Assembly: GCF_000163295.1 (NCBI RefSeq)
Contig: NZ_GG700527.1
Location: 729,867 to 793,866 of the forward strand
From: Anaerococcus vaginalis ATCC 51170
Lineage (GTDB): Bacteria > Bacillota > Clostridia > Tissierellales > Peptoniphilaceae
Direction: 5' to 3'
DNA: 64,000 nt
The translations under genes were made by a program, and so were the position numbers. This document shows positions 21,809 through 38,115 of this stretch, in pieces; positions within the stretch are counted from its first letter, which is position 1, and each line of letters opens with the position of its first letter. The notes beneath the pieces were generated by a model. It was not told the DNA's origin. It saw only the letters and a list, made by a program, of their open reading frames with translations, and did not search any database.

Positions 21809-22660
21809 ATGGTAAAAAATTTCAAAAAAGTTTTTAATATTGGATTTAATTCAATATTATTAGCATTCGGCTTATATTTTTTTTTAGTTCAACATAATAT
21901 TGCACCAGGTGGTGTTACTGGAATTTCTTTAATTATGGCAAAACTTTTTAATTTTTTCACGGTTGGACAATGGTATTTAATTTTAAATATAATTTTATTT
22001 ATTATGGCTTTTTTACTTATGGGAAAAGATTTTGGAAAAAAGACGGTCTTGTCTGCATCAATAATTTCTTTGGCTATAATGTTTTTTGAAAGATATTTTC
22101 CACAAACAATTTTAACTGATGATTTGATAATAAACGTATTCTTTGGTGCAGGTATTGTATCTTATTCTTTAAGTTGTATTTTTTTTAATGATGCATCTTC
22201 TGGAGGAACAGATATAATTGCTGCAATCATAAATAAATATTTTAATATGACGGTAGCAAAATCTTTATTTATAATTGACTCTCTTGTAGTTTTGATGGCA
22301 GTCAAAGAATTTGGAGTAGAAACTGCTTTGTATGCGGTTTTATCTGTTATTATTCAATCATTTGGTTTTAATTATTTCATACAAGGATTAGGAAGAAAAA
22401 TTGCCATTACTGTTATTAGTGATTATAGTGATGAAATTAATAAAATGATTTTGGGTAAATATAGAAGAGGAGTAAGCCTTTACAAAGCAGAAGGGGGTTT
22501 TTCTCATAAAGAAAGAAATATAATACTAACTGTAGTTCCTTTTAGAAAATACATACCTATTAGAGATGATATATTAAAAATTGACAAAAATGCATTTGTT
22601 TTTACTCATGCTATATCAGAAGTGCTAGGAGAAGGATTTACATATCAAGTTTTTGAATAA
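21809..22660 (+). CDS. YitT family membrane protein (DUF161/DUF2179)
   Basis: 283 residues: about five membrane segments in the first 200 residues, with family motifs HNIAPGGVTGISLI and FNDASSGGTDIIAAIINKYF. A cytoplasmic C-terminal domain (KIAITVISDYSDEINKMILG, then KERNIILTVV) of the DUF2179 type follows. Such proteins are common in Firmicutes; substrate or role is unknown. AAGGGAAAG lies before the ATG. It is followed closely by cvfB. Confidence 0.9.
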   Translation: MVKNFKKVFNIGFNSILLAFGLYFFLVQHNIAPGGVTGISLIMAKLFNFFTVGQWYLILNIILFIMAFLLMGKDFGKKTVLSASIISLAIMFFERYFPQTILTDDLIINVFFGAGIVSYSLSCIFFNDASSGGTDIIAAIINKYFNMTVAKSLFIIDSLVVLMAVKEFGVETALYAVLSVIIQSFGFNYFIQGLGRKIAITVISDYSDEINKMILGKYRRGVSLYKAEGGFSHKERNIILTVVPFRKYIPIRDDILKIDKNAFVFTHAISEVLGEGFTYQVFE

Positions 22661-22675
22661 TTGGGAGTGATTTAA

Positions 22676-23482
22676 ATTAAAAATTTAAAAATAAAAAGAT
22701 TTAATAAAAATAAGGCATACATACAAACAAAGTATGGCGATGCTGTAATTGATAAAAATCAAGTAAAAGAATACAAACAAGGCGATGAAATAAAGACATA
22801 TATTTATTTTGACAAGAATAATACTTTAAGAGCAAGCTTAAATCTTGATATTCAAAGTGGAAAAATATATAGTCTAAAGTGTATAGATGTCAAAAAAAAT
22901 GGCGCATATTTTTTATACCAAGATAAAATAAAATTATTAATGCCAGCTAGTGAGAAAACTTATAGAGTTATAAAAGATATGACTTATCCAGTTGGACTTA
23001 TCATAGATGATCAAAATATGCCAATTCTTACAAGCAAAATTAGAGATATGTTATCGTTTGACCATGATTTTAAAGAAAATGATATTGTTGAAGGAAGAAT
23101 TTATTCTATAAATAAAAATATAGGAGCTTTCATTGCAATTAATAATCAATTTGACTCGTTAATAAGAATTAAAGAATTAAATGGAGTTCATATTGAGGGA
23201 GAACTTTTGAAATTAAGGGTCAAAGAAGTAAGAGAAGATGGAAAAATTGAATTATCTAATAGAAAAAGGTCTTATCTTGAAATAGATGATGATTGTCAAA
23301 AAATTTTAGATTATTTAGAAGAAAATAATGGTTTCTTAAATTTGGGAGATAAGTCATCTCCTGATAAGATTTATAAAATATTTGGATTTTCAAAATCTGC
23401 CTATAAAAGAGCTATAGGTAGGCTTTATAAAGATAAATATATTAAGATTTATCCAAAAAAAATACAATTATTGGAGAGGTAA
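22676..23482 (+). CDS. CvfB/YitL-like S1 RNA-binding protein, apparent AUU start
   Basis: The part from ATG 22940 (180 residues) is only the C-terminal two thirds of a CvfB-like protein. The same frame stays open upstream to a TAA at 22673-22675 and encodes a fitting N-terminal OB/S1 domain (KAYIQTKYGDAVIDKNQVKEY). No ATG, GTG or TTG exists in that extension. The frame begins ATT AAA AAT at 22676, and GGGAGTGA (22662-22669) lies 6 nt before that ATT, the only ribosome binding site present. The full protein would be 268 residues, near the usual CvfB length. The later part has an S1 domain (ENDIVEGRIYSINKNIGAFI) and a C-terminal winged helix (DKIYKIFGFSKSAYKRAIGRLY). Confidence 0.75.
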   Translation: MKNLKIKRFNKNKAYIQTKYGDAVIDKNQVKEYKQGDEIKTYIYFDKNNTLRASLNLDIQSGKIYSLKCIDVKKNGAYFLYQDKIKLLMPASEKTYRVIKDMTYPVGLIIDDQNMPILTSKIRDMLSFDHDFKENDIVEGRIYSINKNIGAFIAINNQFDSLIRIKELNGVHIEGELLKLRVKEVREDGKIELSNRKRSYLEIDDDCQKILDYLEENNGFLNLGDKSSPDKIYKIFGFSKSAYKRAIGRLYKDKYIKIYPKKIQLLER

Positions 23483-23483
23483 A

Positions 23484-24230
23484 ATGACAGAAAAAAATAA
23501 CGATATATTAGCAGAAGTAAATGGTAAAAAAATTAGTCAAAAAGAAGTTGTAAGCTTTATTACACAAATGCAAGGTGGACAACAATTTTTGAATCCACAA
23601 GGAATTCATCAAATTACAGACGAATTAGTTAATCAAGAATTAATGTATATAGATGCATTAGAAAATAAACTAGACGAAGATGAAGAATTTACCAAAGAGT
23701 TAGAAATAACAAAGGAAAATATGCTCAAAAATTATGCAATGCACAAATTATTTGAAAGCATAGAAGTAAGCGACGAAGAAATTAAAAATTATTATGATAA
23801 CAATAAAGAAGTAGTAAAAAAACCAAAATCTTACAGAGCAAGTCATATTTTAGTAGATGATGAAGAAAGTGCCAAAAATATTTTAAATGAAATAAATGAT
23901 GGTTTAAGTTTTGAAGATGCTGCTAATAAATATTCAAAAGATAATGGTTCAAAAAATGGAGATTTGGGAGAATTTCCTAAAGGAACTATGGTTAAAGAAT
24001 TTGAAGAAGCCCTTGATAAACTAGGAGAGGGAGAAATTTCAAAACCAGTAAAGACACAATTTGGTTATCATATAATAAAATTAGACCATACACATGATGA
24101 GTATTTACCAGAATTTGATGAAATAAAAGATAGAATTCATGATACACTTTTGATGATAAAAAGACAAGAAAAATATTTAGAAAAAACAAGAAAAATCAAA
24201 GAGAAGGTAGAAGTTAAAAAATATTACTAA
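23484..24230 (+). CDS. Cytoplasmic parvulin-type peptidyl-prolyl isomerase
   Basis: An N-terminal SurA/PrsA-like chaperone region (ILAEVNGKKISQKEVVSFI) is followed by a parvulin domain with RASHILVDDEESAKNIL, GDLGEFPKGTMVKEFEEAL and KTQFGYHIIKL. Unlike PrsA there is no signal peptide or lipobox, so it acts in the cytoplasm. The length is 248 residues. GGAGAGG precedes the ATG. The stop of cvfB is 1 nt upstream, so the two are likely co-translated. Substrate unknown. Confidence 0.9.
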   Translation: MTEKNNDILAEVNGKKISQKEVVSFITQMQGGQQFLNPQGIHQITDELVNQELMYIDALENKLDEDEEFTKELEITKENMLKNYAMHKLFESIEVSDEEIKNYYDNNKEVVKKPKSYRASHILVDDEESAKNILNEINDGLSFEDAANKYSKDNGSKNGDLGEFPKGTMVKEFEEALDKLGEGEISKPVKTQFGYHIIKLDHTHDEYLPEFDEIKDRIHDTLLMIKRQEKYLEKTRKIKEKVEVKKYY

Positions 24231-37408: not shown

Positions 37409-37555
37409 ATGACATCAAGTGCGGAAAAAAAACCAATAATTGAAAAACTTGAATATGATTATTTAATTAATGAAGATATATCTTCATTAAATACATTGAT
37501 GTCATTATATGATAATAAAAATTTTAGAAATTATAAAAAAATAAATTTTTCATAA
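37409..37555 (+). CDS. Upstream fragment of a likely frameshifted gene
   Basis: 48 residues from ATG 37409, with AGAGGGA 6 nt upstream; the longer frame from 37367 has no ribosome binding site. The frame stops just after an A7 run (37535-37541). Adding one A there would continue without a stop into the next open frame, which has no proper start of its own. The product is unrecognised and hydrophilic (EKKPIIEKLEYDYLINEDIS). Confidence 0.5.
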   Translation: MTSSAEKKPIIEKLEYDYLINEDISSLNTLMSLYDNKNFRNYKKINFS

Positions 37556-37575
37556 AACCATACATATTAAAAAAT

Positions 37576-38115
37576 TTGAAAAAGAATTTTTGGTATTTAT
37601 CTGATATAGATCAAATCATTATTAGCTTAGATAAAACAATAGGAAATGATTTGGACAGGTTTGAATTTTTATTGACTTTAAAAAGTGAATATGAAGCTTT
37701 TAAAGATAAAAAATTAATTGATGATTTAGAGTATCTTGCTATTAATTATTATGGGGATGTTTTTTTATTTGAGGAAAATGAAATTTTTACAGAAGATAAT
37801 CCTTATGTTAATCAAGAGAAAAATAATTATATAAAAAAGATTTATGACAATAAAGATTTGGTTTCAAATATAAGAAAAAGTGTAAAAATATATTCTGATA
37901 CATATTTAAAGTTAAAAGTTTTAAATCTTGATGTGAACACTAATAAGCAATTAGCTTTTGATATTGATATGATTTATACCGAAGATATTACATTAAAGCA
38001 GGCTCAAGAAATTAATGATAAATTAGTAAGCCTACTTTACAATATAGCTATTGATGTCTATGCTAATTATTATTGGAAGGGACTTTGTATAGAAGTTGTT
38101 AATAGGTATCATTAA
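37576..38115 (+). CDS. Downstream fragment of the same gene, unknown function
   Basis: 179 residues, acidic and helical, with no family I recognise (DLDRFEFLLTLKSEYEAF; DIYTEDITLKQAQEIN-like spacing near 135). The first possible start, TTG 37576, has no ribosome binding site, and the frame is open back to 37537 within the A7 tract. With one extra base in that tract, the fused protein would be about 240 residues. A terminator follows the stop by 3 nt. It is either a real frameshift, a slippery phase-variable gene or a sequence error. Confidence 0.55.
   Translation: MKKNFWYLSDIDQIIISLDKTIGNDLDRFEFLLTLKSEYEAFKDKKLIDDLEYLAINYYGDVFLFEENEIFTEDNPYVNQEKNNYIKKIYDNKDLVSNIRKSVKIYSDTYLKLKVLNLDVNTNKQLAFDIDMIYTEDITLKQAQEINDKLVSLLYNIAIDVYANYYWKGLCIEVVNRYH

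Follow-up and report, generated by a model that had tools for sequence, protein, structure and literature searches.

The cvfB locus

The window analysed here is a stretch of 64,000 nucleotides of the forward strand of Anaerococcus vaginalis ATCC 51170 (NCBI RefSeq assembly GCF_000163295.1, contig NZ_GG700527.1, positions 729,867 to 793,866). It contains a cvfB gene flanked by two genes on the same strand: upstream an open reading frame for a yitT-like membrane protein (21809..22660, +; Pfam YitT_membrane and DUF2179), and 3' of cvfB a gene for a PrsA-like peptidyl-prolyl isomerase with an ATG start (23484..24230, +). The cvfB coding sequence as delimited here spans 22676..23482 (+) and comprises 268 codons and a stop codon (23480-23482). 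Its predicted start codon is ATT (22676..22678, +), an assignment based on comparison of the corresponding column in 31 Anaerococcus loci, and this ATT follows the yitT stop at a distance of 15 nt. A predicted Shine–Dalgarno (SD) site, GGGAGTGA, can be read from the sequence at 22663..22670 (+), and an in-frame TAA (22673..22675, +) is located immediately 5' of the ATT. Both elements had been described in an earlier note on this DNA, which proposed the AUU start. The stop codon directly before the ATT is confirmed, and the ribosome binding site is indeed present, although with a slip of one base in its position (22663-22670 rather than 22662-22669).

The first in-frame ATG of the gene lies 88 codons downstream of the ATT, at 22940..22942 (+). 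The intervening codons had been read as the N-terminal RNA-binding part of CvfB, and the domain matches bear this out. When the frame is translated from the ATT, residues 2-55 (22679..22840, +) match S1_2 (PF13509), the first S1 domain, with E = 7.2e-9, and residues 208-265 (23297..23470, +) match the CvfB winged-helix domain (PF17783) with E = 4e-25. Both matches are above the cut-off, and residues 132-194 match the Pfam S1 domain 0.1 bit under it. The protein thus has the S1-type N-terminal part and the C-terminal winged helix of the CvfB/YitL family; 3go5 was the only solved relative found in the PDB (E = 2e-15). A start at ATG 22940 would cost CvfB its first S1 domain.

Start codon of cvfB in the genus Anaerococcus

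The cvfB gene is present in all 31 Anaerococcus genomes searched, and the start regions of all 31 were read. The column of the predicted start codon contains ATT in 18 loci, ATA in 8, ATC in 4 and GAT in 1. Here we use AUH for AUU, AUA or AUC, and we assign to the class of fixed AUH starts those loci in which a non-canonical codon at SD distance is conserved across the clade; 30 of the 31 cvfB loci belong to it. The distance from the end of GGAG to the start column is 6-8 nt in every locus. The yitT stop is found 12-23 nt 5' of the AUH codon in 30 loci, the end of yitT being unrecognised in the remaining one (L009), and an in-frame stop occurs within 30 nt 5' of the column in 28 (the exceptions are L008, L017 and L030).

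The earlier note had suggested looking for relatives that also lack ATG at this codon, and had allowed that an ATG in sister strains would betray a sequence error. No ATG occupies the column at any of the 31 loci, 30 of which have ATT, ATA or ATC, and with 31 separate assemblies in agreement on this point sequencing error is rejected as the cause of the missing ATG. The comparison strongly backs the AUU start of cvfB; on the sequences compared, the AUH start is genus-wide in Anaerococcus, which is a stronger result than had been claimed.

A canonical start codon accompanied by an SD-like 4-mer is found near the column in 2 of the 31 loci. In A. ihuae (G003) a TTG lies one codon 5' of the column with an SD site within reach, and in a second genome (G014) an ATG with an SD-like 4-mer lies nine codons 5' of it, within yitT. 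Three loci (L003, L004 and L009) have a GTG three codons 5' of the column, inside the SD. The single GAT belongs to A. vaginalis PH9 (G029; L005, about 1480-1520), where it is in frame and no AUH codon is present at the column; by the look of the sequence, it apparently stems from a run of A whose length differs from that in A. ihuae.

Because ATT, ATA and ATC are exactly the isoleucine codons, the column alone is also compatible with an internal residue and does not by itself prove initiation. The alternative that translation begins at ATG 22940, or that an ATG was lost through sequence error, can draw on the fact that 22940 is the earliest canonical in-frame start codon of the window cvfB, and that an ATG is found in the same column (one codon earlier in L035) in 26 of the 31 loci. 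However, 5 loci lack this internal ATG, and of the 26 with it, 18, the window included, show no SD-like 4-mer in front. Furthermore, the ratio dN/dS in 21 pairs drawn from 7 of the 31 loci is 0.09-0.44 for codons 2-88, compared with 0.04-0.18 for the remainder of cvfB. The low ratios indicate purifying selection on the upstream part, if looser than on the C-terminal part, which argues against an internal start, as the 31 separate assemblies argue against an error. We therefore reject ATG 22940 as the start of cvfB and regard this alternative as highly improbable.

Equally hard to credit is a fusion of YitT to CvfB by stop readthrough or frameshifting, which would make a start codon unnecessary: the two genes share one frame in the window, but two stops separate them there, and the offset between the yitT and cvfB frames differs among the 31 loci (0 in 16, +1 in 5, +2 in 9, undetermined in 1), which excludes a conserved readthrough product.

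Origin of the AUH start

A family-level search matched cvfB in 125 of 130 genomes, leaving five without a match, and all 94 loci from outside Anaerococcus, representing 38 genera, were read. Accepting any in-frame ATG between about -21 and +15 codons of the expected place, as in all our counts outside Anaerococcus, an ATG is present near the expected start in 93 of the 94, and the remaining locus (G072) has a TTG. When ATG is required to be accompanied by an SD-like 4-mer, the count is 89 of 94 outside Anaerococcus versus 1 of 31 within the genus. The nearest genera (g14 and g17) have cvfB with ATG. An order-wide search matched 175 of 198 genomes, and all 20 loci that were hand-picked from other families have ATG.

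In a tree of 41 CvfB proteins, consisting of the 31 from Anaerococcus and 10 chosen outgroup loci, the Anaerococcus proteins occupy one side of a branch with support 97/96. With the GAT row left out, a single change from AUG to AUH suffices on this tree, and at least eight substitutions among T, A and C, with none to G, fell on the third position of the AUH codon. These changes without a G, together with the absence of ATG from all 31 loci, would favour selection for a non-AUG codon, although a count of eight is too small to settle the matter. As far as comparison of sequences can tell, the position of the AUH codon, its conservation and its single origin are well founded, as is the coding nature of codons 2-88.

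Other genes with AUH starts

Every one of the 31 Anaerococcus genomes has infC, and the 30 infC loci read all start with ATA. Its product, IF3, exceeds the TIGR00168 cut-off in all 31. An infC start of ATT, ATA or ATC was likewise found in 30 of 30 other genera, each represented by one genome.

An AUH start was also found in smc. The start column of this gene in 30 Anaerococcus loci (L200-L231) contains ATT in 29 and ATA in 1, and coincides with the beginning of the conserved SMC N-terminus. In 23 of the 30 loci an in-frame stop precedes the column by 3 or 9 nt; in the other 7 the SD contains two GTG codons. The final T of the ATT in the source genome (L166:9087-12608; G000:C6, about 573087) doubles as the first base of the preceding gene's stop codon. 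Among 30 other genera, again with one genome each, smc starts with ATG, GTG or TTG in 27 and with ATA in 2, and the start is unclear in 1 (G078). The two genera with ATA (G065 and G069) are the nearest ones.

The third case is a prophage gene (L167:13364-13954, +) with the extended SD AGGAGGTGAT and an ATC start (AGGAGGTGAT-ACT-ATC). We call it small-terminase-like, as a putative name, after the N-termini of such proteins. It is labelled hypothetical in phage records, and the three phage homologues read start with TTG, GTG and ATG.

The screen of the source genome for AUH starts covered 389 predicted genes in 464 kb at first and 714 in 864 kb after extension. Four AUH starts were kept: those of cvfB, infC, smc and the prophage terminase-like gene. 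The remaining flagged rows were judged by eye to represent chance, internal codons, broken frames or the vicinity of a canonical start. The number four is a lower bound, because the screen overlooks genes that happen to have a canonical codon upstream, and it includes infC from a stretch that was picked deliberately. Nevertheless, with four starts kept among 714 predicted genes, widespread use of AUH in Anaerococcus is rejected. Judging from these sequences, AUH starts are rare yet not confined to translation genes; nor are they tied to RNA-binding genes, because smc has one.

Within the window, 62 of the 66 predicted genes were ranked against five other Anaerococcus genomes, and start regions were read for 14 of the 21 genes scoring below 6 of 6. 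Among these 14, the ATG start is missing in the source genome only for 37537-38115 (+). This gene has no early start and its frame is apparently broken, and in two other genomes (G003 and G004) the frame is open further upstream.

Codons 2-7 of cvfB in the window (22679-22696) share 15 of 18 bases with codons 2-7 of infC (L137), a likeness noted post hoc. The infC codons were also compared with 984 SD-plus-ATG starts in the sample, where the number of matches has a maximum of 14 and a mean of 7.6. Over 30 genomes the cvfB and infC codons match on average at 12.6 bases, compared to 8.4 for permuted letters, and permutation values for single genomes range from <0.0005 to 0.24. Part of this likeness is due to base composition and to the older IKR motif of CvfB. 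It is possible that cvfB and infC have a sequence context for AUH initiation in common.

Relation to known non-canonical starts

The earlier note had presented infC as the known case of an AUU start. It is a valid example and one of several: pcnB and lepA are older AUU-start cases (PMC1780047), Borrelia pncA is another (PMC13398362), sigR starts with GTC, and starts identified by Ribo-Ret in S. aureus include infC (AUA), ccpN (AUA), cvfC1 (AUU) and citZ (AUA) (PMC13009471). The similarity of cvfB to infC consists in an AUH codon that follows a strong SD and is fixed in a clade, Anaerococcus infC itself starting with ATA. The two genes differ in that the AUH start of cvfB is limited to Anaerococcus, whereas that of infC is found in all 30 other genera read, and in that IF3 inspects codons itself, whereas the cvfB product is not the inspector.

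Like cvfB, sigR of Streptomyces combines a fixed non-canonical start with a strong SD, lies in a translationally coupled operon and is distinct from infC (PMC5472188). The start of sigR is GTC and the effect of IF3 on it was shown by experiment (PMC5472188), whereas the start of cvfB is AUH and we infer the IF3 effect. Staphylococcus ccpN (AUA) and cvfC1 (AUU) resemble cvfB as chromosomal genes of Firmicutes with a conserved AUH codon and an extended SD (PMC13009471). They are unrelated genes, cvfC1 being no relative of cvfB by its description, and their starts are conserved among staphylococci or as far as B. subtilis (PMC13009471), whereas that of cvfB is conserved within Anaerococcus. The lepA gene of Borrelia and B. 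licheniformis and Borrelia pncA provide a parallel of a different kind, as the AUU start alone restores the full N-terminal domain, which annotation otherwise drops (PMC1780047, PMC13398362); these are other genes in other lineages than cvfB.

For a non-canonical cvfB start, for AUU in Anaerococcus and for start codons in Peptoniphilaceae, searches of the open-access literature gave nothing relevant among the matches listed. A preprint by Gvozdjak and Samanta (arXiv, 2020) reportedly deals with genes that prefer non-AUG starts. By the evidence of the alignments, cvfB is a new genus-wide gene in the known class of fixed non-canonical starts, and smc would be a second.

A probably weak start under proposed control by IF3

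We consider it probable that cvfB in Anaerococcus is read from AUU, AUA or AUC, that it is read weakly and repressed by IF3, and that the AUH start arose once and was then kept. The SD just behind, or overlapping, the yitT stop would select AUU (AUA or AUC in other species) as the start of cvfB. Rejection by IF3 of codons other than AUG, GUG and UUG would lead to poor initiation at the AUH codon, with the strong SD and the ribosomes coming off yitT assisting it. The level of CvfB would consequently be low, dropping when IF3 is plentiful and climbing when it is scarce. A single exchange of AUG for AUH would have taken place at the base of the genus, with AUH retained since. Initiation at the AUH codon, its low yield, control by IF3 and any benefit from it are what we infer from this reasoning. 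IF3 is described to repress sigR through its GTC start (PMC5472188), and with infC and sigR as precedents, control of cvfB by IF3 appears the likelier situation. Reporters of cvfC1, ccpN and citZ in S. aureus reached about 10% of the AUG level in poor medium, and that of ccpN up to 30% in rich medium (PMC13009471). The points against this reading are the TTG of A. ihuae and the ATG of G014, which could serve as starts, the GTG in three loci, and A. vaginalis PH9 without an AUH codon.

The earlier note had instead suggested a feedback similar to that of infC, here taken as repression of the AUU start by CvfB bound to the cvfB mRNA. The S1 RNA-binding domains of CvfB-type proteins are the sole point in favour of this proposal. 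On the other hand, the same type of start occurs in the same genus in smc, a gene concerned with neither RNA binding nor translation. Moreover, infC is described to be autocontrolled by virtue of IF3 itself inspecting start codons (PMC5472188). There is no hint of such a function for CvfB, and as cvfB does not encode the inspector, a closed loop through its own product is not expected. Folding of four 101-nt stretches around the cvfB start in three genomes gave z from -1.42 to 1.11, with no unusual fold and no conserved RNA structure seen at the start, a result that addresses structured sites only. The suggestion of CvfB feedback is thus unsupported and we hold it to be very unlikely; control by IF3 would be the more economical explanation.

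Another scenario fares better. The AUH codon could be merely a fixed low-yield start aided by coupling to yitT, with no regulation by IF3, either because little CvfB suffices or through drift. The yitT stop at 12-23 nt ahead of the cvfB start in 30 of the 31 loci fits coupling, an AUH start is likewise found in the unrelated smc, and E. coli pcnB, described as simply limited by its AUU (PMC1780047), provides a precedent. The third-base changes, at least eight with none to G, and the lack of ATG in all 31 loci nevertheless suggest that a non-AUG codon is selected, even though they are not evidence that IF3 makes use of it. We find this scenario unlikely, without regarding it as far-fetched, and retain weak initiation under IF3 as the preferred reading.

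These considerations lead us to speculate, tentatively and with more doubt than confidence, that Anaerococcus widened the class of AUH starts inspected by IF3 beyond infC to a small set with cvfB and smc among its members, forming a start-codon regulon. The smc gene, which has ATA in the two nearest genera as well, would have joined earlier and cvfB later. If so, a shift in the amount of IF3 relative to ribosomes would alter how much of an RNA-binding regulator and of a chromosome-segregation protein is made, both at once.

The list of fixed AUU, AUA and AUC starts in bacteria is short, and cvfB and smc are two chromosomal additions to it. Gene finders that accept only ATG, GTG and TTG would trim the CvfB of the window to 180 residues and drop its first S1 domain. 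Both starts arose at points that can be located within a single family, which allows species that have the trait to be compared with species that lack it, and the two genes make it testable whether IF3 controls genes besides its own in these bacteria.
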